Source: Legionella spiritensis (lineage in GTDB: Bacteria; Pseudomonadota; Gammaproteobacteria; Legionellales; Legionellaceae). From it: 64,000 nucleotides of DNA. The position numbers and the translations under genes were made by a program. Shown piece after piece: positions 49,145 to 61,607 of the stretch; within the stretch, counting starts at the first letter, position 1, and each line of letters opens with the position of its first letter. The notes beneath the pieces are model-generated. The model ran no database searches. It saw only the letters and a program-made list of their open reading frames with translations, and was not told where the DNA came from. The stretch spans positions 1,452,501-1,516,500 of the forward strand of contig NZ_LT906457.1 of the NCBI RefSeq assembly GCF_900186965.1. The letters are read 5' to 3'.

Positions 49145-51283
49145 TTATTGAATCATATTAAAGAAGACACCTTTTGCCCGGAGCAATTCCTGATAATTGC
49201 CTGACTCGACACAACGGCCTTTTTCTATGACATGAATAATATCGGCATGGCGAATGGTGCTTAGACGGTGCGCTACTACAATACGAGTCACGGCGAGGTT
49301 CTGTAAAAACTGCTGAACCTCATACTGGATTTTATTATCAAGAGCGCTGGTGGCTTCATCCAGCAAGAGAAGGTGAGGGCTGGAGCTTACCGCGCGTGCC
49401 AGGATAATGCGTTGCATTTCTCCGCCTGAAAGGGTCTGGATCCCATCGTTGATAAATGTATCGATGCCCATTGGCAAATCATGTATGACTTGTTCAAGTC
49501 CAATTTTTTTTATTATATCCCATGCTTGTTCTCGAGACATTTGCATGTTACGTCCGGCAATATTCTCAAAAATAGTACCAGGAAGAATTCTGGATGATTG
49601 CAGCACGGCACCAACATGTTTTCGTAAATAGTTGCCGTCAATTTTTTGCAAGTCAATGCCATTGAATTTTATCGAACCGGAGGTTATCGTTTCCAGTCCA
49701 AGAAGTAAGCGCAACAAGGTAGACTTACCGGCACCGGATGGTCCAACGATAGCAACGAAAGAATGTGGCTTTATAGTCAAATTAAAGTCAACGAACAAGG
49801 GTTTTTCGTTTCCGGAATAACGGAACATGACTTGATTAAAATCAATGTCACCTTTAAAAATGGATTCATTACCCAGTGGTCTGGTTTCTTCTACAGGTTG
49901 GCGAAGAATAGGTAACACTTTTTGATAAATCGGTGCTATTTCTATGGATGAAAGTACGGTATTAGCCAAAAGAATCATTGCCGCGAAAAACTGCATAAAA
50001 GCAGCGTTAAAAATGATAAATTGCCCAAAACTTAAATTGGTGCCTTGCAGGAATACCAAACCATAAATAACCAGAATACTAAGCCCGCTCCATCCCAGGC
50101 TGAAGATTTGCAAATAATATTCATAGCGTGACGCATTTTGATGATGAATCATTTTTTTACCAAAAAAATGATTCCACCAGCGGAATGCGTGATGTTCTTT
50201 ATGATGGACTCGGATCTTGGCAATAATAGTGATTAAACTTAACAGGGTACTGTTAAGTTTAATTTTTTGATTGACCACTTCCCGTTGTTCACGCAATGCT
50301 CTTAGATTAACAAGGAACGTTGCTATAACCATAATTAAAAGTAATGCTATTACGGTTAAACCCAGATTTACGTTAATGACAAACATGATAACGAGGTTTA
50401 ACAGAGACAACAGGGAAGATACAATAATTTGAATGGTTCCGGTCTGAAGCTCTTGTTGTATATCGTTTACAACAGTGCAACGGAAATGGAGATCGCCGGC
50501 GGTAAAGCGGCGAAAAAATGAAAGTGGAAATCGCAACAGACGATCCCATATGGCCATCTGCAAGCGATATTTGGTTTTAAGTTGTAACTGCATAAAAATT
50601 ATCGTTTGCATCAATTGAAAAATAATAAGAACTATCAGTACTAATAAAAATAAAATAGTTGTCTGGAATAAATAATGCAGGTTGGCTTGCGGGATAATGC
50701 TGTCAATAAGATAACCGGTAAAAAAAGGAATAGTTAATAATAAAATACTCATAAATAGTTGAAGCACGACACTGTAGATTATTTCTGTTTTGAATGGCTG
50801 TAGTAAAAAATGAAGAACGGTTCCAAGTTTTAAGATTTTATCTGGTAATGCCGGACAAAATGTATAGGCCTGCGGTGTAATGTATTTAGTCATGTTGCTG
50901 GTTAATTTTACAGGGATTTCTTTTTCCGGATCTATCAAAATGTAACCTTTATTTTGCTGGAAAACAAACGCGCATGGTTGATTTTTATAAAGAGCTATAA
51001 ATGAGCCGCAATCAAAATGATGCCAATCTTTTTTTAAACGAAATTCACGAACACGAAATTTGTTGTCACAAGCAACAGATTCCAGTAAGTTCTCAAGAGA
51101 TAATGACGCAGAAAAACCACCGGGTTTTATTGTTATTTTTAATCCTGAATTCTTCGCAATTATTCGGCTAATAATAAAACATCGATCGGCAAAATCCAGT
51201 GCGCTTTTCGGCTGTTGACGATGGTTAATTACCTCCTGTAAAACGTCTTCGCAATCAGGAGGGACCTGGTGGCTATTGTTCAT
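49145..51283 (-). CDS. NHLM-type ABC exporter without peptidase (permease/ATPase)
   Basis: 712 aa. An N-terminal soluble region (about 1-150; no Cys/His pair of a peptidase) precedes five or six membrane helices and an ABC ATPase: Walker A VGPSGAGKSTLLRLLL, LSGGEMQRIILARAV signature, Walker B HLLLLDEATSALD, and the AHRLSTIRH switch. This matches the second permease/ATPase of NHLM-type bacteriocin exporters, which probably pairs with the preceding C39 transporter as a heterodimer. Its ATG overlaps the stop of that gene (ATGA at 51280-51283). Last gene of the operon. Confidence 0.88.
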   Translation of the reverse strand: MNNSHQVPPDCEDVLQEVINHRQQPKSALDFADRCFIISRIIAKNSGLKITIKPGGFSASLSLENLLESVACDNKFRVREFRLKKDWHHFDCGSFIALYKNQPCAFVFQQNKGYILIDPEKEIPVKLTSNMTKYITPQAYTFCPALPDKILKLGTVLHFLLQPFKTEIIYSVVLQLFMSILLLTIPFFTGYLIDSIIPQANLHYLFQTTILFLLVLIVLIIFQLMQTIIFMQLQLKTKYRLQMAIWDRLLRFPLSFFRRFTAGDLHFRCTVVNDIQQELQTGTIQIIVSSLLSLLNLVIMFVINVNLGLTVIALLLIMVIATFLVNLRALREQREVVNQKIKLNSTLLSLITIIAKIRVHHKEHHAFRWWNHFFGKKMIHHQNASRYEYYLQIFSLGWSGLSILVIYGLVFLQGTNLSFGQFIIFNAAFMQFFAAMILLANTVLSSIEIAPIYQKVLPILRQPVEETRPLGNESIFKGDIDFNQVMFRYSGNEKPLFVDFNLTIKPHSFVAIVGPSGAGKSTLLRLLLGLETITSGSIKFNGIDLQKIDGNYLRKHVGAVLQSSRILPGTIFENIAGRNMQMSREQAWDIIKKIGLEQVIHDLPMGIDTFINDGIQTLSGGEMQRIILARAVSSSPHLLLLDEATSALDNKIQYEVQQFLQNLAVTRIVVAHRLSTIRHADIIHVIEKGRCVESGNYQELLRAKGVFFNMIQ

Positions 51284-53457
51284 AGCTTTTCCATCCTGAA
51301 TTGTTCATAATAAATTCCCTGGCTCTTTATTAAATCCTGGTGACTTCCTGCTTCTGCAATATGACCCTTGTCCAATACCAGAATCTGGTCGCAATTTTGT
51401 ATCGCATGCAGGCGATGCGCAATAATAAACAAAGTGCGCTGTAAAGGGATAAAATTCTGATAAATGATTGATTCGGTATTGAGATCCAATGATGCCGTAG
51501 CTTCATCCAGAATAAGAAGTTCCGGCTTGTGTAACAATGCCCTGACAATTTCAAGTCGTTGACACTGTCCGCCGCTTAAATTACTTCCTCCTTCGGATAC
51601 CGTCATGTTTAAACCACCACGGCTGCCAATTTCCTCATCAAGACAAACAAGTTTTAATAAATCATGAATGTCCTGATCGGCTATTTCCTGGCTCCAGAAC
51701 GTTAAATTGTCACGTAACGTTCCTTCGAAGAAAAAAACATTCTGATCGACATAAGCAATAAACTCGCTTAATTCCTGACGATTTAAATTGCTGAGAAGAT
51801 AGTCGTTAATGAAAATTTGTCCCGAATTAACTTGATTTAAACCACAAATGAGTTGAGCAAGGGTTGATTTACCGCTGCCGCTGGCACCTACCAGCGCGAT
51901 TCGTTGCCCACGTTGAACCGTTAAGGACAGGTTATCTATCACTGGTGGCTCCAAAGGCGAGTAACTGTAGGTGATGGCATCCAGTTTTAAAATGACCGGT
52001 GATTTTTTCTGTAAAAAATCATGTCCCGCTGCGTTTTTAACGGTAAAATGAGGGTCGACCGTTGTTTCCAAAACATCATTCAAACGAATTAAATCCCCAC
52101 GGCTATCATTTATTGTGGTTGCAAAGTCCACCAAACCGCTTAAATTTGCAATAACAAGAAAAGCGAGTCCCTGTATGGCGATAATGGTTCCTACGGTTAT
52201 TTGACCAATGATCACCAGATAGGAACCGAAACAAAGAACGAGCAGGATTGTCAGTAAATTAATAAAAGAAGGAAACAAGCCAAGCATTGTTTTTCGCCAG
52301 AGAATTTGTTGTTCCGACTGCAAGGCATTGATGTAATGGCTTAACCAACGATTAAAGAAAATAGATTCCAGAGCACCTATGCGGATTGTCTCAATAATTT
52401 GTAACCCATTCATTTCAATGCCATACAACTTTCCCTGTTCCTGGGCATAACGTTGGCCCAAAGTCGTCAAGTAGTGTTTTGAAAGAACAAGGGCAACAAA
52501 ATTCATAACGATTAACAAGGTTAATAGAATGCCGATTGGCCAGCTTAAAATCATAATTACTGCCATATAGGCTATTATTTCGATGGTATTGACCAGCGCA
52601 GAAGGTATGTCGTTGGCAAGTGTTTCTGAAATTTTCTCACTGATTTCCTGTCGTTCCACAATATCCCCTGATGAACGCTGTTGAAAATAGCGAATGGGGA
52701 TATGGAGGAGATGCCAAAGAAACGATACTGTATAGAGCATTTCCAGCTTTATCTTAAGCCGAAGAAGTGATTTTTTTTGTATCCAGGTCAGTAACATCTC
52801 AATGAATGTGGCCATTGCAATACCACCAAAAATGATTGGGATTAAACTGTTTTGATGGTTCGTCAAAATGTCATCGACAAAAACTTTAATAAATAAAGGA
52901 ATAAACGTTTTAGGAAGAATTAAGAGCAGTGTAACCAGGCTGATAAACAGCATTGCGATTTGATTATGTCCAATACGCTGCCAAAGTAAATGGAAGGTGC
53001 CTGAAGGGGGCTCGCCACTGGGAACAAAATGTTCACCAGGTTCAATTTCAAGGACAACGCCGGTAAATCCCTGCTCAAACTCCTCCCAGTCAACGATACA
53101 GGAACCAACAGCCGGATCATTTAAATAGACTTTTTTTGCGCTAAATCCTTCAACAATTAAAAAGTGATTGAATTTCCAAAAGACAATAAAGGGCAGGGTG
53201 ACACCGTCCAATTCATCAATTTCCAGATTATAACCACGTGCAGACATGCCATAATGGCGTGCCGCTTTTACCAGATTGATAGCCGTGGTACCGTTTCGGG
53301 AGACGCTGCAAATAGAACGTATCTCCTCGGCAGTCACAAATTTTCCATAGTGAGCCATGAGAATAGCCAGTGCAGTAGAGCCGCACTCGGTTGCTTCCAG
53401 TTGTAAAATGACCGGGGTCTTGACACGTCTCATTTTAGTCAGAATACGGGTCGTCAT
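51280..53457 (-). CDS. C39-peptidase ABC transporter for double-glycine leader peptides
   Basis: 725 aa. The N-terminal C39 peptidase has QLEATECGSTALAILMAHYG (Gln19, Cys25), FNHFLIVEGF (His98) and VYLNDPAVG (Asp114), so the Cys-His-Asp triad and oxyanion Gln are all present. Five or six membrane helices follow, then the ATPase with VGASGSGKSTLAQLICGL, the LSGGQCQRLEIVRALL signature, LLILDEATASLD and AHRLHAIQN. Such proteins cut leaders after Gly-Gly while exporting the peptide; a matching peptide is encoded just upstream (55277-55492). Starts and stops overlap by four bases with both neighbours. Confidence 0.94.
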   Translation of the reverse strand: MTTRILTKMRRVKTPVILQLEATECGSTALAILMAHYGKFVTAEEIRSICSVSRNGTTAINLVKAARHYGMSARGYNLEIDELDGVTLPFIVFWKFNHFLIVEGFSAKKVYLNDPAVGSCIVDWEEFEQGFTGVVLEIEPGEHFVPSGEPPSGTFHLLWQRIGHNQIAMLFISLVTLLLILPKTFIPLFIKVFVDDILTNHQNSLIPIIFGGIAMATFIEMLLTWIQKKSLLRLKIKLEMLYTVSFLWHLLHIPIRYFQQRSSGDIVERQEISEKISETLANDIPSALVNTIEIIAYMAVIMILSWPIGILLTLLIVMNFVALVLSKHYLTTLGQRYAQEQGKLYGIEMNGLQIIETIRIGALESIFFNRWLSHYINALQSEQQILWRKTMLGLFPSFINLLTILLVLCFGSYLVIIGQITVGTIIAIQGLAFLVIANLSGLVDFATTINDSRGDLIRLNDVLETTVDPHFTVKNAAGHDFLQKKSPVILKLDAITYSYSPLEPPVIDNLSLTVQRGQRIALVGASGSGKSTLAQLICGLNQVNSGQIFINDYLLSNLNRQELSEFIAYVDQNVFFFEGTLRDNLTFWSQEIADQDIHDLLKLVCLDEEIGSRGGLNMTVSEGGSNLSGGQCQRLEIVRALLHKPELLILDEATASLDLNTESIIYQNFIPLQRTLFIIAHRLHAIQNCDQILVLDKGHIAEAGSHQDLIKSQGIYYEQFRMEKL

Positions 53458-54734
53458 TTGCTTGTACCTTTATTTATCACCCTGTTGGTTAGATTGATAA
53501 GAATGTCAATTGGTTTTTTTTCTTCCACATTAAACATGGCGTCTACCAGTGTGCCTTGCGTTAGCTGCAAAGGCGGCCCCTGGGACGTAGTCCATTGGTA
53601 ACCGCTGTGCGATCCTGAGTTTTTTTGCAATGAAACCTTGACTGCTAATTGAGGTTCCGATGGCAGAAACGTATTAACTATTTGCTTGTTTTTAAGTAGT
53701 GTCATCATCATTTGGGGGGTAACCGGTAGAGATGAAACCGTTTCGACGCGTCCTTTAATAGTGCCGAATTCAAATTTGTTCACCATGGTCGGCGCTATTT
53801 GTACCTTCATACCAGGCTTGATGAGTTTCCCTTTGCCGGCGGGTACGAAAATGAGTGCGTACAAATTTTGATCTGCGGGAATGATGGTCAGTATCGGTTG
53901 CCCTGGTTGAATATAATCACCCGCTTTTACACGTATTTCGGCGATGGTGCCTGCAAGCGGGCTTTTAATCAGATTGGTATGTAGCCATCGTCTTTTTATT
54001 AATTGATAGTTATGTTCTTCCTTGTAAATAATAAGAGCCAGTTCTTTTTGTCGCTCCTGCCATTTATCCTGCAGCTCCACCAGATTGCTTTTCATTGAAA
54101 TTAACTCTGCTTCATGGGAGTTGATTTCTTGCAACAACTTAAAATATTCTATGCGAGTTTCCGTCACATTTGGCAGATCAATAATTCCTTTTTTCATGGC
54201 ATTTTCTTTTAGCTTTGTTAAAACAGCAAGCTGTTTCAGCTTTTCTTTTGCTGCTCGCAGGCTAGCATGAATTTTTTCGATTTGTTCTTCTTGTTTTTCT
54301 CGCAAATCTTTTACCATAAATTCGGCGCGCTCCGATAAAATATTTTGTTCATATTTTAATTTTTTTAAATAGTTTCCTTGTATTTCCAATTGAGTTTCCA
54401 AGTCGCTTTTTATAGTTGCTAGAACGGTGTTCTTCTTTATAGTTTGCCCGGTATATACGACGATTTTTTCGATAAACCCGGAGTTTTCAGCGGCTTGAAC
54501 TGTTTCAATATCGCCAACCACACTCATGAGAACGCCTTTCCCGGATGTTTTTATAAAAAGCGTTCCCAAAAATAGCCAGGTTATACATCCACAAATTATC
54601 AAAACCAACACAAGTAGTAACAGCCAATTTTTCAAGGTGATAACTTGAAGAGTATCGTCCATGGAAGTCGGTTTATTCAGATGTTCGAGCGCCTTTTTTC
54701 GGAATTTAACAGGTTCTTCTTTATTATTTTTCAT
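53454..54734 (-). CDS. HlyD-family periplasmic adaptor of the peptide exporter
   Basis: 426 aa membrane-fusion protein. One membrane helix (about 33-55), then a short biotinyl-lipoyl half (VQAAENSGFIEKIVVYTGQT), a long coiled coil (about 115-240), the second lipoyl half (LIKSPLAGTIAEIRVKAGDY) and a beta-barrel end. This domain order is that of HlyD adaptors in NHLM-type bacteriocin systems. It links the inner-membrane ABC exporter to an outer-membrane TolC protein, which is not in this window. Overlaps of four bases with both neighbours indicate translational coupling. Confidence 0.9.
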   Translation of the reverse strand: MKNNKEEPVKFRKKALEHLNKPTSMDDTLQVITLKNWLLLLVLVLIICGCITWLFLGTLFIKTSGKGVLMSVVGDIETVQAAENSGFIEKIVVYTGQTIKKNTVLATIKSDLETQLEIQGNYLKKLKYEQNILSERAEFMVKDLREKQEEQIEKIHASLRAAKEKLKQLAVLTKLKENAMKKGIIDLPNVTETRIEYFKLLQEINSHEAELISMKSNLVELQDKWQERQKELALIIYKEEHNYQLIKRRWLHTNLIKSPLAGTIAEIRVKAGDYIQPGQPILTIIPADQNLYALIFVPAGKGKLIKPGMKVQIAPTMVNKFEFGTIKGRVETVSSLPVTPQMMMTLLKNKQIVNTFLPSEPQLAVKVSLQKNSGSHSGYQWTTSQGPPLQLTQGTLVDAMFNVEEKKPIDILINLTNRVINKGTSK

Positions 54735-55171
54735 GGCAGCTGCATCTGAAAAAGTTTATCCTGGGTTTGCCGCAGACGTTGGGCAAGCACAGGGAGTAGT
54801 TGAAGGGCAATTTCAGGATATGCCTGCATCTGGGCTTTAAAGTCCCATGCGGAGATTGCAAGCGTATTGGTTGGTTCGAGAGCGACTACACTGGCAGAGC
54901 GAGGTAGTTCGTCAATAATAGCCAGTTCTCCGATGATTTCTCCGGGCTGCAGTTGAGCGATGATAAATTTTTCATCATTATTAAAGGTACGAAATACTTC
55001 AACCTGGCCTGAAATGAGTATATAACAGAATTCTCCCAGTTGACCTTCTCGCATTAGAATGTCATCTTTGGCAAAAAATTGCTCATTACCAAGGGCTGCG
55101 ATATGCCATAAAATACGATCGTTGAGATTGGAAAAAGTAGAGGATTTTTTTAAAGCATCTATCGCATTCAC
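54731..55171 (-). CDS. Cyclic-nucleotide-binding domain protein of the exporter operon
   Basis: 146 aa, essentially one cNMP-binding (CAP-like) domain: EQFFAKDDILMREGQLGEFC, then YILISGQVEVFRTFNND, the phosphate-binding cassette ELAIIDELPRSASVVALEPT with Gly-Glu-(x)-Ala and Arg, and a helical end. There is no HTH, so it is not a transcription factor; it could gate the exporter in response to a cyclic nucleotide. NHLM-type exporters often carry such a domain fused or nearby. First gene of the four-gene coupled set. Confidence 0.88.
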   Translation of the reverse strand: MNAIDALKKSSTFSNLNDRILWHIAALGNEQFFAKDDILMREGQLGEFCYILISGQVEVFRTFNNDEKFIIAQLQPGEIIGELAIIDELPRSASVVALEPTNTLAISAWDFKAQMQAYPEIALQLLPVLAQRLRQTQDKLFQMQLP

Positions 55172-55205
55172 AATAGGTCCTTACATGAATATTTTATACT
55201 CATCT

Positions 55206-55243
55206 AAAAATAAGTTGCCGCTTTTAGCAAAGCTGCAACTTAT
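55206..55243 (-). terminator. Attenuator-like terminator between the peptide gene and the exporter genes
   Basis: On the minus strand, ATAAGTTGC (from 55243) and GCAACTTAT (to 55210) form a perfect 9-bp outer stem with an inner GCTTT/AAAGC stem, followed by a run of T. It lies 34 bp after the peptide stop and 35 bp before the next gene. A leaky terminator here would give more peptide mRNA than exporter mRNA. Confidence 0.75.
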
Positions 55244-55276
55244 GGAATTCAAAGACAACTATTCGTACGCTTTCAT

Positions 55277-55492
55277 TTAAAAAGGTTTTTTTATCTGAGC
55301 CAACCTGTCCTCGATAGACTGGTTTGTTCTGGAAGTCGGAGCAGCCCGGACAGCTTCAGGAGTCGACGGACTTGTTGGCACGGCTCGATCTCGCACTCGT
55401 CTTGCTCTTCTGGATTGCGGGCCAACGCCGCCACCGGAAATACCCTGTAAGGCCTTCTCGGAAAGCTCACCTTTTTTGTGTTTACGATTCAT
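55277..55492 (-). CDS. Double-glycine leader peptide, putative bacteriocin or secreted peptide precursor
   Basis: 71 aa. Residues 1-21 form a leader ending GELSEKALQGISGG, with the Leu-Ser, Leu, Ile and Gly-Gly positions of C39-processed leaders (cut expected after Gly21). The predicted 50-residue product starts GVGPQSRRARRVRDRA and ends IEDRLAQIKKPF. It has nine Arg, two Lys, four acidic residues and six Pro, and no cysteine. It has no hydrophobic pore-forming segment and no modification enzyme is nearby, so an unmodified linear cationic peptide is likely. AGAGGT lies 8 bases before the ATG. It is upstream of and on the same strand as the exporter genes. Confidence 0.75.
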   Translation of the reverse strand: MNRKHKKGELSEKALQGISGGGVGPQSRRARRVRDRAVPTSPSTPEAVRAAPTSRTNQSIEDRLAQIKKPF

Positions 55493-55594
55493 TTTAATTT
55501 ACCTCTCTATTGTCATGTTGCATTCTAGTCCCGATAAGATGGCAACATCAGAAATAATTACAGCAAATTTCAAAAATATCCTTTTGCAATTTAA

Positions 55595-55623
55595 ATTATA
55601 GCCCACGTGTCTTAAACTGACAG
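55595..55623 (-). promoter_or_regulatory. Candidate promoter of the double-glycine peptide gene
   Basis: On the minus strand TATAAT (55600-55595) is preceded at 17 bp by CTGTCA (55623-55618), four of six matches to TTGACA. The transcript would have a leader of about 95 nt. The 335-bp gap 55493-55827 otherwise holds an inverted repeat at 55766-55808 and no gene. Confidence 0.5.
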
Positions 55624-55765
55624 TTAAACAGATATGAAGATAGGAATGCAAACCAATTTTATTGAAAATAAAATGGTGTCCTGATTGGTGTATTTTGATG
55701 TTCCGCAAAGATAAATTTCCGTTATTAAACGGATAACATGGGCATTATACCGGATTTCAATTCAG

Positions 55766-55808
55766 GGTTTATTGACATGCCAATTGTTGGAGCAAATGTC
55801 AATAAACC
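55766..55808. terminator. Perfect 13-bp inverted repeat after the large effector-like gene
   Basis: GGTTTATTGACAT (55766-55778) and ATGTCAATAAACC (55796-55808), loop of 17, start 20 bp past the stop codon of the 1338-aa gene. No U-run, so it is either a Rho-dependent or processing hairpin, or an operator. Confidence 0.5.
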
Positions 55809-55827
55809 ATGAGATTTTTTTATTGGG

Positions 55828-58800
55828 CTATTGGGTGTAACTTTGGTTAAATTCACCGTCTTTTACTACGGGTAGCTCGATTTCCTTTGCGATGATTTTT
55901 ATGCTTGACAAATTGTCTTCCATAATGCACTTGATATTGTCTGGATGACTTAATGTTTCGTCGTTGTAAGTCATAATTCTTTCGGCATTAGACGGATCCA
56001 TTTCCTTGATGATATCCTCAAGTTTTGGAAGGTGTTTACTATCGGATATCAGGCTGCGATAGCGGTTAATAAGAGCGTCAGAAGCACTGATTTCTTCCAT
56101 GGATTCAGTGCGTTCAACTTTGTCATGTAATTTTTGCCATTTTGATGAGGTTTTAGGCGGCTCTTTCGATGTCATTAGTTTTTTACTTGATTCCAATTCT
56201 CTTTCTTCATAAATGTGAGCCACTTTTTGTTGAAATTTATGATGTTGTTTTGGTGTAATATCTTCAACGATCATAGGTCTATTTATTTCAGGTTTTACAT
56301 CCAGATTAAAAATGGTTTGCACCATTTTAGCCTGAGCTTCCGTTTTGACGGTTAAACGAAAGGAAAGACTTTTATCTGAACGCCAGGCCACCTCAACAAT
56401 TGCTTGCGAATCCTTTGGAATACCTTTATTTAAAAGGGATGTAATATATGGGAAAGTTTCTAGTCTATAGGTAGGTTCTGTCAATAATTGTTGTCGTTTA
56501 CTATGATATTGTTGATTGACATTATCCATTAGCACTATTAATTGATCCGAGGTTAAATTACAGCTAAGGCCAGTTGATGATATTTTAAAATCAAGTTTGA
56601 ATTGATGATTCAAATCATCGATGAGCTTCTGTTTCGTAGTTGATAAAACATAGGTTCCATTCTCCAATAGCTCCAATTGGAATGGTATGCGTTTTTTCAA
56701 TGGATCTATACGCATTTCATTAAGGAAAACGTGACCATCATGCGACATAACCGAGGTTGGTGATACGGTTTTTTCCATTTTATCGATGAAGTCTACTTCT
56801 TCTTTGGTTAATAATAAGCGTTTTTCAAAAACATTGAGAATGTTCCGATTACTTGTCGTGGCATGGACGGCCATTTCATCAATAAAGTCAAGATACCCGT
56901 GTAATTCTTTATAGGACATGCCTGTTTTTAATGCTTCCCTGATTAAATCAATTTTTATTTCAGCGAAATAATGATCAAAATTTGATAATTTTCCGGAACC
57001 AATTTGCACGACAAGTCCATCTACCAGATTTTGTAAGTCGCTGCCTTCATCGCAATGAATTCTAATCTCACCCAAACGACTTAATAATGTTTCCGTCGAA
57101 GGGGTGCGTTGCTGAACACGATATAGTTCCTGCCTTAATCCCGGATAACTTTTAATGACCTCTTCACTTGGATTTTCTCCGGTAATCATTTTTCTTAACA
57201 GATGAACTCCAAACATGCGATCAGATAAAGGTGTATCATAAAAAATACTGTAATTCCGGTACATAAAATGACGGGCTATGCCAATTTTAGATGATCCTCT
57301 GAATATGGCAGGGGCACTTGCCCCCGGATCTTCAAACATAAAATCATCAGTCAGAGTCCCGGAAACGCCCTTTCCTTCATAAGGTTTGCCATAATCAAAG
57401 CCATAAAACGCGCCTTCGGCGAATCCTTTATTCTGAGCGTCTTTACCTATACCGTCACGATCACCGATGGCGATACCAAAAATCAAATTTTTGCCCAAAC
57501 CAGGCACCATTTTTGATCGTTTAACCAGGGATTTTTTATCTTCAACCAAAATACCCTGATAATCAGGTTCCTGACCGCCATGTAAATAGGTACGTAATTC
57601 TTGCAAACCATTTTTCCAGCCACATGCTAACAAGGCATGGGGTCCTGTCGGTCCTTTGACCCAGGCAATGTCCTGTTTCTGGTTCTGACTACTGAAAATT
57701 CCGGCCAATCTGGTTCCGACAAATTCTCTTATCGCCTCATTATTGGCGTCGGTCCGTTTTTTACTTTCTCCTTTGCCAGCATAATCAAGTTTATACATCC
57801 AGGCGCTTAGCCTGGTATTTTTGGAAACGGCTTCTTTGATATGTTCACAAAGTTCTACAACATCCGGATCAAGATCATCTTTCTCGTGCGGATTTGGTGA
57901 CCATTTATTAATTAGTGTGGCAAATGCCATTTGCTTGTGCTTTAAACTGTCCGATTCCAATGATTTCATTAAAACGGCAAATTTATCTTCGTTTAATGAC
58001 GGTAGTATTTTCCCTAGTTCGTTAAAAAAGGTTTCATCCAAATCTATGGCCCGGAATCCTGGCTCAACACCCCCCGGTTTTTCACCATAGCAAAATTGAG
58101 TCTGGCCAAACATGGTTCCCAGACGACTTAATTTTTTACTGGAACGTAATTGGGTGTCACCGCCATCTGATTTGAGTTTGACGGAATCAACAGAGGGTGA
58201 AATGGTAGGGTTGACTATCTTTTTTGAACCAATTACAGGTGCGCTGATCGAGGGTTTCTTTGGTTGACTGGATGTATTTATAATTGGTGGCAATAAACTT
58301 TCTTCAGAAACAACGGACTGCGTTAATTTGGTCAGCATCCTTAACAGAAGTCCGTCTTTTTGTAAATGTCTGGAATTTTTTTGCAGTTCTACCCCGAAAT
58401 GCTTCATGCAAAAAGTGTTCAGATCTTTTGCCAGTCTACTGTTTGAACCGCCACTGGAATTCAGGATGGTGTTGTATTCCGTAGCAAATACATCTAATAA
58501 TGCAAAGATTCTGGCATCAGAAGACAGATCTTTGTCTTTCATTATTTTATTAATGCCTTCTCTCAACCGAATCAGACTGTCAAGGCGGCCTGTTGTTATA
58601 CGTAACTCATTGATTACTTTGGCAATCACACCATACTCATCTTTAAAGTGTTCGGTTGTAACGGCTGATTTGGAAGGGGCGTTGCCTGACAATAATTCCA
58701 GATATTTTTTGGCGAACTCGTTATCGAGTTTGTATTGCTCCGTTTTATCCGTATGAACAAAGGCTTCCTTGTCAAGGCTCATGGCAAGAAAATATTCATC

Positions 58801-59844
58801 ATCAATCACTAAATCTGACAGTAATAATCGGTAGAAGGCCTCGCGTAATTCCGGCGAGTCCGGGGCATCTTCTATGCTGTCAAGCCAGGGTGTGACCAGA
58901 TCGTCATCTGGTATTGGAAACGCATCGTGTCCCAGTAATTTATACAATGCCCGATAACCGCAACTCCACCCGTCCTTCTGTATATTTTCCGATTCGATAT
59001 GAATGTCAGGTTCAATGTCCGGGAATGCCGTGTAGGTTTTTGCAACGCCGTTAACGATTGAAACCTCATTATAATTAGCGGCAGTCTCTAATATTCCCTG
59101 AACTTCCAAACCCGCAGTCATGGAGTCACTGTAATTTATGGTGACTGTTTCATCTTCCGGATTAACGGTAATTAATGCCTCGGTCCAGTGTGAACCCTGG
59201 CTATATAAAGAACCGCTATTGCCGCAATTGATGAGCAGCGGAATGGTATACGGTTGATCGTCGCCGCCATGTTTCTCACGTTCAAAATGCAGGATCATAC
59301 CGATGTCTTCGACGTTTAATCGGGTAATATGGACTTTGTCCCTGACGCCAAGTTTGGTCAGGGTTCGTTCCAAATCCACTTCACTGAGCCATTCCTGCTG
59401 GCCCAGTTCGGCATTAAGAAATTTTTCCGCTACACCTAAATTAGCGCCTTGTGCATGCAAATCGCGCAGGGATACTGATTTTGATTTTTGTTTGATATCA
59501 AGGGATTGTAATCCCGCTTCTTTCTCATCAAAAGCAATGGTGACAGGAGGGGTATCTTCTGAAAAAATTACGGATTTATCAAGTAGTGCCACCAGGTATT
59601 GAAACTGTTTTTCATGCTCTTCTCTTGTAACCTGATTGCTGCTTCCTATGGCGTCAAGCTCCAGATTTTCAGAGTTCAGGTTGTAAAAAAAATCAAACGC
59701 CTTGATTAAATGACCGTAATTTTCCGGCGAGTCCAACCAATTCATGTGAAACGTGTCTTTGAATTTTTCACCAAGGTATAACTGGAGGAGCATCCGTTTT
59801 TTTTCTTCCTCTAATACCTTTTGTATTTCATGTGAGCTTTTCAT
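55828..59844 (-). CDS. 1338-aa protein with Ulp1-like (clan CE) protease domain, candidate effector
   Basis: No signal peptide. Residues ~200-305 show the Ulp1/adenain order: SQGSHWTEALITVNPE (His219-Trp220), TINYSDSM (Asp240), IQKDGWSCGYRALYKLLG (Gln289, Cys295). These are the catalytic His, Asp, oxyanion Gln and Cys of proteases that remove ubiquitin, SUMO or NEDD8. Mid-protein, LIFGIAIGDRDGIGKDAQN (about 787-805) followed by FYGFDYGKPYEG has the GDRxxxxxxxN…D(F/Y)G pattern of PI-kinase-like folds. The C-terminal ~500 residues are helical/strand mixed and unassigned. A PmrA-like box and -10 precede it. Effector status and both activities are inferred from motifs. Confidence 0.68.
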   Translation of the reverse strand: MKSSHEIQKVLEEEKKRMLLQLYLGEKFKDTFHMNWLDSPENYGHLIKAFDFFYNLNSENLELDAIGSSNQVTREEHEKQFQYLVALLDKSVIFSEDTPPVTIAFDEKEAGLQSLDIKQKSKSVSLRDLHAQGANLGVAEKFLNAELGQQEWLSEVDLERTLTKLGVRDKVHITRLNVEDIGMILHFEREKHGGDDQPYTIPLLINCGNSGSLYSQGSHWTEALITVNPEDETVTINYSDSMTAGLEVQGILETAANYNEVSIVNGVAKTYTAFPDIEPDIHIESENIQKDGWSCGYRALYKLLGHDAFPIPDDDLVTPWLDSIEDAPDSPELREAFYRLLLSDLVIDDEYFLAMSLDKEAFVHTDKTEQYKLDNEFAKKYLELLSGNAPSKSAVTTEHFKDEYGVIAKVINELRITTGRLDSLIRLREGINKIMKDKDLSSDARIFALLDVFATEYNTILNSSGGSNSRLAKDLNTFCMKHFGVELQKNSRHLQKDGLLLRMLTKLTQSVVSEESLLPPIINTSSQPKKPSISAPVIGSKKIVNPTISPSVDSVKLKSDGGDTQLRSSKKLSRLGTMFGQTQFCYGEKPGGVEPGFRAIDLDETFFNELGKILPSLNEDKFAVLMKSLESDSLKHKQMAFATLINKWSPNPHEKDDLDPDVVELCEHIKEAVSKNTRLSAWMYKLDYAGKGESKKRTDANNEAIREFVGTRLAGIFSSQNQKQDIAWVKGPTGPHALLACGWKNGLQELRTYLHGGQEPDYQGILVEDKKSLVKRSKMVPGLGKNLIFGIAIGDRDGIGKDAQNKGFAEGAFYGFDYGKPYEGKGVSGTLTDDFMFEDPGASAPAIFRGSSKIGIARHFMYRNYSIFYDTPLSDRMFGVHLLRKMITGENPSEEVIKSYPGLRQELYRVQQRTPSTETLLSRLGEIRIHCDEGSDLQNLVDGLVVQIGSGKLSNFDHYFAEIKIDLIREALKTGMSYKELHGYLDFIDEMAVHATTSNRNILNVFEKRLLLTKEEVDFIDKMEKTVSPTSVMSHDGHVFLNEMRIDPLKKRIPFQLELLENGTYVLSTTKQKLIDDLNHQFKLDFKISSTGLSCNLTSDQLIVLMDNVNQQYHSKRQQLLTEPTYRLETFPYITSLLNKGIPKDSQAIVEVAWRSDKSLSFRLTVKTEAQAKMVQTIFNLDVKPEINRPMIVEDITPKQHHKFQQKVAHIYEERELESSKKLMTSKEPPKTSSKWQKLHDKVERTESMEEISASDALINRYRSLISDSKHLPKLEDIIKEMDPSNAERIMTYNDETLSHPDNIKCIMEDNLSSIKIIAKEIELPVVKDGEFNQSYTQ

Positions 59845-60137: not shown

Positions 60138-61607
60138 ATGGGAAAATCAGAAGAAGACAATGAGATCGATAAACGCGGCACTCTTTTTTCAGTGCAACAA
60201 AAAAGTGGAGAGATAACCTGTTTCTTCAGTGATTTTTCCCAATTACTTGGAACTGGTGAGGCGGGTGATGTTTATAAAGGATATCGATGTAGTCCCAAAG
60301 AGGCGAGAGCAGACCACGGTCATTGTCGGATTAACGAGAGTGAACTCACTGTTTTTAAAGACCAACCGGTCGCCATAAAAAGTTACAAGGAAGGTAAAAT
60401 GCCTTCGGCGTATCAGGTAGCCAGAACTAGTATTGCGACGTTTGATCTGGAAGATAGAACGGTTCTTATTATGGAATTCCTCGACGGATTTCAGATTGCC
60501 CCGGATTTTACAGACAATAAAGAGATCAGCCGTTTCACTTTTTTGCAAACCGTTGATGTTGCATGGCAGCTGGTTTTAGGGCTGAATCAGTTGCATTATA
60601 GAAACACCAGTTGGATTCCTGTCGTTCATGGTGATGTTAGTGGTTCAAATATTAAAATTAAAAAAAGAACTGAAAAATCGATTGATGTTCATTTCCTGGA
60701 TTATGATTATACAAAGCCAATTTCCTCTATACCACAGCAGCCTCAGGGGACACCCGAGTTCATCGCCCTGGAAGTACTGGATGGGTATTATTCCGAGGCC
60801 AGTGATTTCTATGCGCTAACCCCCGTGCTGTTAAGTCTTTTCGGTGCTAAAAATCCTCTTCAAAAAATGTTTGACTATCGAGACGCCCATACGGATATGG
60901 CTGTCGAAGATTTAATAAAACGATACACCGACATCGGCTTTTGTTCGGAAGGTATGTTTAGTCAATTTAAACCGGAACCTCCTTTGCATATCTGCAAATT
61001 ACTGGACAATTTCATTAAAAAAATGGGCGCTAAAGACAAGCATTCGCGTCCTTCGCCCGAAGCTATACTGGAATTCTTTACCTCTTTACGACAGTGGTGT
61101 CTGGCTAATGAAGCGGGTGATGTGGACACCGAGTATTATCTTCTGCGACTTGGTATAGCCTCTAATAATGAACACTGGCTGCGGGAGGAGAGATACCTGA
61201 CGTTGTTTGCCGAATTGCCGGAAAATATGCAGGAGCGGCTCATTGATTTAATGAGTCCCGAACACTACACCTGTCTTTATAAATGGTTATCCCTTCATTA
61301 TCAGGACTGTAATATTCTGCCCAGATTAGAGAAAATCATAACCTCAGCTTTAATGGAAAAAAGTACCACCATTAAAACTCCGTCAAAGTTGCATGGTATG
61401 TTTAAGGCGCCTGTAACGCAAAAAGAAATAAGCTGGTTGCTGACATGTTTTGCAAATCGTGACGAAACCGGGTTTTTTTTACCTGAAAGCAGAACCTGCA
61501 GAAAAAAACTGGAACAATGCAAGGAGCCTGATCTAGCGCCTTTAATTTCTGCGCTTATGTATGGATTGCAACAACGTCAACAATTTGAAATAAAGCACTG
61601 CGGATAA
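60138..61607 (+). CDS. Eukaryotic-like Ser/Thr protein kinase (LegK-like), candidate effector
   Basis: 489 aa, no signal peptide. The kinase domain (about 30-330) has the Gly loop LGTGEAGDVYKGY (37-49), VAIK with Lys81, the catalytic loop VVHGDVSGSN (His164, Asp166, Asn171), LDYDYT (188-192) in place of DFG, and GTPEFIALEV as the APE-like segment. All phosphotransfer residues are present, with His-Gly-Asp instead of His-Arg-Asp. The C-terminal ~160 residues are helical. It resembles the LegK group of Dot/Icm-translocated kinases; the exact orthologue is not assigned. It is divergent from the 1338-aa gene. Confidence 0.85.
   Translation: MGKSEEDNEIDKRGTLFSVQQKSGEITCFFSDFSQLLGTGEAGDVYKGYRCSPKEARADHGHCRINESELTVFKDQPVAIKSYKEGKMPSAYQVARTSIATFDLEDRTVLIMEFLDGFQIAPDFTDNKEISRFTFLQTVDVAWQLVLGLNQLHYRNTSWIPVVHGDVSGSNIKIKKRTEKSIDVHFLDYDYTKPISSIPQQPQGTPEFIALEVLDGYYSEASDFYALTPVLLSLFGAKNPLQKMFDYRDAHTDMAVEDLIKRYTDIGFCSEGMFSQFKPEPPLHICKLLDNFIKKMGAKDKHSRPSPEAILEFFTSLRQWCLANEAGDVDTEYYLLRLGIASNNEHWLREERYLTLFAELPENMQERLIDLMSPEHYTCLYKWLSLHYQDCNILPRLEKIITSALMEKSTTIKTPSKLHGMFKAPVTQKEISWLLTCFANRDETGFFLPESRTCRKKLEQCKEPDLAPLISALMYGLQQRQQFEIKHCG

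Follow-up and report, generated by a model that had tools for sequence, protein, structure and literature searches.

A double-glycine peptide beside an NHLM-type exporter in Legionella spiritensis, a probable member of a scattered family of basic, unmodified secreted peptides

Here, we describe a small double-glycine (GG) precursor gene and the exporter genes next to it in Legionella spiritensis (RefSeq assembly GCF_900186965.1, contig NZ_LT906457.1, positions 1,452,501 to 1,516,500). This stretch of 64,000 nucleotides is referred to as the window, and coordinates are positions within it unless another contig is named. All five genes lie on the minus strand, in the following order: the precursor (71 amino acids (aa); 55277-55492, taken from the list of open reading frames (ORFs)); a stand-alone protein of 146 aa with a GTG start that binds cyclic nucleotide monophosphates (cNMP; 54731-55171; PF00027, 78.9 bits); a HlyD-type periplasmic adaptor of the NHLM class (53454-54734; TIGR03794, 213.2 bits against a cut-off of 156.2); ABC1, in which a C39 peptidase is joined to an ATP-binding cassette (ABC) exporter and which is predicted to cut and export peptides (51280-53457; PF03412); and ABC2, a second ABC exporter identified by Pfam, without a peptidase match, which would be the NHLM partner (49145-51283). 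Neighbouring genes overlap by 4 bases throughout the four-gene exporter set and can therefore fairly be called coupled; the first-pass annotation, which had placed a 71-aa GG precursor upstream of four coupled genes, had their coordinates right.

The closest NCBIfam models of HlyD, ABC1 and ABC2 were the NHLM set TIGR03794, TIGR03796 and TIGR03797, and the three genes are adjacent, as NHLM/NHLP-type exporters require, with the same set present in relatives. Both ABC proteins scored under the curated cut-offs of their best families (760.3 bits against 853.3 for ABC1 with TIGR03796; 628.6 against 709.4 for ABC2 with TIGR03797), and the exporter is therefore called NHLM-type here and regarded as a divergent relative; ABC2 of one related locus, L049, cleared the TIGR03797 cut-off with 794.4 bits (L and G numbers denote the loci and genomes compared, G000 being the L. 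spiritensis genome itself). The catalytic triad Cys25/His98/Asp114, which had been read as intact, was invariant together with Gln19 in all 14 aligned ABC1 proteins. ABC1 matched PCAT1 (PDB 4ry2) across residues 6-721 of 725 and had a PDB match to ComA as well, and 29 matches to the TolC family (OEP) were found in the same genome. Some exporter genes of relatives appeared to be split or interrupted: ABC2 was divided between two frames in L079 and L102, as was HlyD in L093, and in-frame stops were reported for one ABC1 match in L053 (G002, contig C1, 718515-720623).

Exporters of this type are not new to Legionella, because two NHLP-type systems, LB2SS (9 of 45 species) and LB3SS (11 of 45), were described in 2020 together with a ColV-like system, LB1SS; the accessible part of that paper gives no substrate for LB2SS or LB3SS (Brown et al., 2020; PMC6959600). 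Matched by described type and not by named sequences, the L. spiritensis exporter is probably one of these two. The earlier claim that no Legionella system of this kind had been described thus falls for the exporter type and holds, as far as our literature search goes, for the cargo, which appears to be new: in a search mostly without subscription journals, no published description of these precursors was recognized, and the terms LB2SS and LB3SS were met in PMC6959600 and in one unrelated match. A plasmid search gave 28 records with exporters of less than 60% identity, and Legionella appeared neither in the named genera nor among the matches listed.

The precursor consists of a 21-aa leader ending in ISGG (55430-55492) and a 50-aa core (55280-55429). 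Its leader has I, L and L at positions -4, -7 and -12, the three positions at which the rule for leaders of C39 peptidases, as stated in the available part of one study, places hydrophobic residues (PMC10885120). The core has a net charge of +7, nine Arg, six Pro, no Cys and no hydrophobic stretch of 15 aa, which bears out the first description of a cationic, cysteine-free product of 50 residues without a pore-like segment. The peptide had no Pfam or NCBIfam match, and a leader of the NHLP (TIGR03793) or N11P (TIGR03798) kind was rejected on the lack of a family match. In the closest relative, L087 (ABC1 69% identical), the gene order is kept and a GG peptide stands at the same place; its leader is identical to that of L. 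spiritensis at 14 of 21 positions and its core at 16 of 50.

The association between such leaders and the exporter was analyzed in 143 genomes of the family, 38 of which contained ABC1 homologues (E<=1e-140) at 43 places, and all 43 loci were fetched. Within 5.5 kb of an exporter, a strict GG-leader rule selected 33 of 374 small intergenic ORFs; farther away it selected none of 440. The rule was framed once the loci had been inspected a first time, and it covered 35 of them (the other 8 were not centred). Relatives that keep the exporter and lack a GG peptide had been proposed as the sign that the precursor is not real; with labels assigned by eye, GG-leader precursors were found for 41 of the 43 exporter loci, beside the exporter or in another part of the genome, and none was found for the other two. 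Leader alignments were then run on whole genomes in a search blind to exporter positions (A3, 22 rows from exporter loci; A4, broader, 81 rows). At E<=0.01, A4 matched 28 of the 143 genomes, namely 24 of the 38 with an exporter and 4 of the 105 without (Fisher p 1e-13), some of the matches arising by construction since part of its rows came from genomes counted here. This is the co-occurrence of leader and exporter that had been suggested as a check. The four genomes matched without an exporter at this threshold were G058, G063, G109 and G138, the leader of G109 being LB1SS-like. The profile was specific: across the class, 3 of 369 genomes matched it, two of them within the family and one outside.

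Searched with the leader profiles, the L. spiritensis genome gave a single match, the window peptide itself, at weak E-values of 4e-4 and 4e-3. Such values would fit a chance open frame, in which the GG is coincidental and the true cargo is encoded at another place, such as the second C39 exporter of this genome (L005; G000, contig C1, 1890000-1908000), which stands beside two GG peptides of 57 and 58 aa with different leaders and is perhaps a ColV-like LB1SS. Against such a coincidence stand the contrast between ORFs near to and far from exporters, the GG peptide at the same place in L087, the agreement with the -4/-7/-12 rule and the fact that the profiles found no other frame in this genome, and we consider it highly improbable.

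Leader-profile matches reached 13 per genome, mostly as scattered lone genes, in genomes with one such exporter. Several genomes without a precursor beside the exporter had many elsewhere (13 matches in G126, 11 in G007 and 10 each in G006, G119 and G125), and G120 and G123 had 13 and 11 matches, two of each at the exporter. Sixty scattered stretches were fetched from 12 of the 27 genomes matched by the leader profile, and all of them except L293 contained an ORF with the motif. The whole collection comprised 101 precursors, 30 of them at exporters; L304, with an LB1SS-like leader, was dropped before the cores were counted, leaving 100 precursors and 97 distinct cores. All 100 leaders had Leu at -7 together with a hydrophobic residue at both -4 and -12; the collecting rule had itself required hydrophobic residues at -4, at -7 and at one of the positions -10 to -12. 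The scattered genes were mostly single, sometimes paired, and lay among unrelated genes, and some cores recurred across species, such as one with the end PDPDEIRRILDERLKR. The first-pass idea of a peptide with its own exporter stands as regards a cognate C39 exporter; the peptide is not a lone one, being a member of a genome-dispersed family that often has many copies per genome.

With a mean length of 29.6 aa and a mean charge of +3.2, 83 of the 97 cores were positively charged. Compared with the tails of 443 control ORFs (mechanical ORFs without GG, many of which are not genes), the cores were rich in Pro (12.6% vs 5.6%) and Arg (13% vs 5.8%) and poor in Cys, which occurred in 8 of 97 cores and 234 of 443 tails. 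Lys and Arg made up 41% of the last five core residues and 22% in shuffles. In 43 orthologue pairs, silent change exceeded replacing change in both parts of the precursor (pooled ratio of replacing to silent change, pN/pS, 0.32 for the leader and 0.29 for the core), pairs that are non-independent and were chosen at a core identity of at least 55%, so that a low value is partly expected because this choice lowers pN.

GG leaders together with C39 exporters are typical of bacteriocins, and the most likely use of the peptides, tentative as it is, would be as antibacterial linear microcins of a class II-like kind or like proline-rich antimicrobial peptides (PrAMPs), the cores entering competitors and blocking the ribosome or another target inside the cell. 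The basic, Pro-rich composition of the cores relative to control tails would agree with such a use, and to the eye some cores (L049-L052) resemble insect PrAMPs such as oncocin. PrAMP identity was nevertheless rejected, as PRP/RPxP motifs occurred in 7 of 97 cores against 9.6 in shuffles, and one PrAMP-like core had no sequence match in PDB, a weak test given that chains of fewer than 20 residues fall outside that search. None of the 97 cores contained a membrane-grade hydrophobic window of 15 aa. Moreover, inspection by eye of about 1.5 kb around 70 scattered precursors showed no immunity gene recurring outside orthologous places, an inspection that an unrecognisable protein would escape, and this weakens a classical bacteriocin reading.

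Self-immunity would be unnecessary for host-directed peptides, which would be released in or near protist hosts and act on host targets. Such a role is consistent with an intracellular lifestyle, to which the Dot/Icm gene icmQ in the L. spiritensis genome points (it was not found in 14 control genomes), and with a repertoire that varies between species. A DEIRRI-type motif, also in its favour, was present in 6 of 97 cores and in none of 300 shuffles, the motif having been picked post hoc and two of the six cores being near-identical. The idea of SH3 ligands was unconvincing, with SH3-type motifs in 11 of 97 cores, only a little more than the 7.7 and 8.2 obtained by shuffling, and the analysis showed no path by which type 1 export would reach the host cytosol. 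On balance, host-directed action seems unlikely.

Two further types of precursor were observed besides those whose leaders end in SGG. L096-L099 and L104 contain tandem precursors with a dissimilar leader of 48 aa ending in EAGG, and a profile of this leader matched 10 of 140 genomes, each of which also has the exporter. The fetched loci yielded 36 distinct EAGG cores by profile count, 35 of whose leaders end in GG; 33 of the 36 were positively charged, with 9.7% Pro, 11.7% Arg and Cys in two, and Lys and Arg formed 41% of their last five residues against 24% in shuffles. A third type, with leaders ending in ICGG or IVGG, was noted in L053-L055, L079, L091, L100 and L103, and the cores of L053-L055 look hydrophobic rather than basic. 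NCBIfam had no match for two EAGG, one IVGG and one ICGG precursors. When 9109 small ORFs of 80 further loci were searched, there were 15 matches to the SGG leader profile at E<=1, all of them with GG and several with long leaders, and one to the EAGG profile, without GG. The distant NHLM loci L140 (Asaia), L106 (Cohnella) and L151 also contained short GG precursors, whose cores lack Cys and are partly basic. The unmodified precursor type may extend more widely than the family.

Leader type followed the ABC1 tree. The EAGG loci formed one sister clade of exporters (100/100), the SGG type was spread over two exporter clades, and a branch (90/85) set the xVGG type apart on one side. The tree needed 8 label changes, whereas shuffled labels needed 24.5 and none of 200 shuffles came as low, a test weakened by near-copies and several long branches, by labels assigned by eye and by 2 of the 43 loci having no precursor. 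A cNMP homologue was present in 19 of the 43 exporter loci, and its phosphate-binding cassette, which reads GEIIGELAIIDELPRSAS in the window protein, kept the Arg in 9 of 9 proteins of the SGG clade and had Thr in its place in 10 of 10 of the EAGG clade (L090, L092-L099 and L104); the meaning of this Arg is taken from CRP. A cNMP domain fused to the long ABC2 of loci without the separate gene was rejected, no Pfam cNMP match being found in the three tested (L049, L078 and L081).

The cNMP-binding gene suggests regulation and could thereby speak for kin signals, that is, diffusible peptides with a receptor, like the GG pheromones of the ComC type; signals are among the peptides that C39 exporters process, ComA being an example, and ABC1 has its PDB match to ComA. 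No obvious receptor gene recurred beside the scattered precursors, judged from first residues and without domain annotation, and many cores per genome would need many receptors. Signalling among kin is rather improbable as the role of the family.

No modification enzyme was found among the annotated genes near the precursor, as the first-pass annotation had stated, and a search of the whole genome for LanC-like (LANC_like) and YcaO proteins, the two enzyme types searched genome-wide, found neither. A lanthionine cyclase and Cys in the cores, the marks of prochlorosin-like lanthipeptides, do not characterize this system. A protein of 489 aa on the plus strand (60138-61607), 4.6 kb from the precursor, had a weak match to a middle part of the lanthionine synthetase LanKC (23.9 bits, cut-off 575) and another weak match to MAD6; it is likely to be a protein kinase, and the LanKC match of this kinase-like gene therefore leaves some room for modification.

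Some other features of the locus should be mentioned. Between the precursor and the cNMP gene, the minus strand can form a hairpin of 14 pairs followed by a T run (55210-55243; -16.8 kcal/mol, z -3.9; 0 of 200 shuffles equally stable), which was not among the sites listed by a separate terminator scan, and the folded part of the corresponding gap in L087 was nothing special (z -1.3; 16 of 200 shuffles). It may act as a partial terminator or mRNA stabiliser, as would be expected ahead of the exporter genes if the cell made more precursor than exporter. A putative sigma-70-like promoter, CTGTCA-17-TATAAT (55595-55623, minus strand), lies about 100 bases upstream of the precursor and fits 10 of 12 positions; the promoter scan gave three such sites on both strands against a shuffled mean of 2.8. 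A GAGG stretch resembling a ribosome site precedes the ATG of the precursor, and an Rfam scan of 54700-56000 gave no match at the gathering threshold. A phage or defence origin was rejected, as neither the precursor nor the cNMP protein had a PHROG match and the PADLOC matches of the cNMP protein and ABC1 were taken as shared domains. The gene adjoining the precursor (55828-59844, minus strand) encodes a protein of 1338 aa without a Pfam, NCBIfam or PADLOC match, which perhaps, as an impression only, is a Dot/Icm effector.

Taken together, the gene content, the conserved leaders, their association with the exporter and the conservation of cores between orthologues are apparent from the sequences, and it is very probable that NHLM-type exporters cut and export a repertoire of unmodified, linear, Arg/Pro-rich basic peptides to which the L. 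spiritensis peptide belongs. The ribosome would make the 71-aa precursor, whose short leader helix would be gripped by the C39 domain of ABC1 through the hydrophobic residues at -12, -7 and -4 and cut after Gly21; the 50-residue core would then leave through ABC1, ABC2 and HlyD, joined by a TolC-type protein whose gene lies at another place, and the cNMP-binding protein might couple export to a cyclic-nucleotide signal. A single exporter would serve scattered precursors that share one leader type and carry very different basic, Pro-rich cores, with 1 to 13 matches per genome. Several of the observations above pull the other way: the sub-threshold scores of ABC1 and ABC2, the weak score of the window leader, the two exporter loci without a precursor, the four leader-bearing genomes without an exporter, the A4 matches that arise partly by construction, the selected orthologue pairs, the lack of an immunity gene seen to recur and the LanKC-like stretch.

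The results provide a plausible cargo for Legionella exporters of the LB2SS/LB3SS type and define a peptide family that can be searched for, and they prompt one to ask why a single lineage should require as many as a dozen distinct basic peptides for secretion. A more daring interpretation, which we consider doubtful, is that of a natural library of unmodified exported peptides, resembling the prochlorosins without their modification chemistry, with a conserved leader, dozens of different cores scattered mostly as single genes and one exporter serving all of them, in which two dissimilar leader types have converged on basic, nearly Cys-free cores that would serve encounters with protist hosts or mixed communities rather than bacteriocin warfare.

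Among known systems, the prochlorosins combine a single enzyme and exporter with many scattered precursors. Scattered precursors, a conserved leader, diverse cores and one exporter are shared with the present system, which differs in having no LanC-like protein in its own genome and almost no Cys. The logic of one exporter and many scattered cores is known from modified peptides, and here it is seen in an intracellular bacterial family without the modification enzymes that were looked for. In class II microcins with CvaB-type exporters, unmodified GG-leader peptides leave via a C39 ABC protein and HlyD, the same kind of export set as here, whereas the present cores are hydrophilic, Arg/Pro-rich and without a visible immunity gene. 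PCAT1, LahT and ComA share the C39 and ABC architecture and the leader rule, as far as the available text covers it (PMC10885120), and the exporter described here adds a second ABC protein and a HlyD adaptor as partners. The NHLP/N11P precursor-exporter systems, judged from the accessible part of their description (Haft et al., 2010; PMC2887384), have in common with ours the exporter families TIGR03794, TIGR03796 and TIGR03797, a GG leader, a hypervariable core and several precursors per genome; in contrast, the present leaders are 21-34 aa or about 48 aa long and match no NHLP or Nif11 model, and the cores are nearly Cys-free in a genome without a LanC-like or YcaO protein. With LB2SS and LB3SS, the system described here shares an NHLP-type C39 ABC exporter in Legionella and a second ABC protein at the locus, the latter stated for LB2SS in the available part of PMC6959600, and to this description the precursors, their scattered copies and the cNMP gene are added here.
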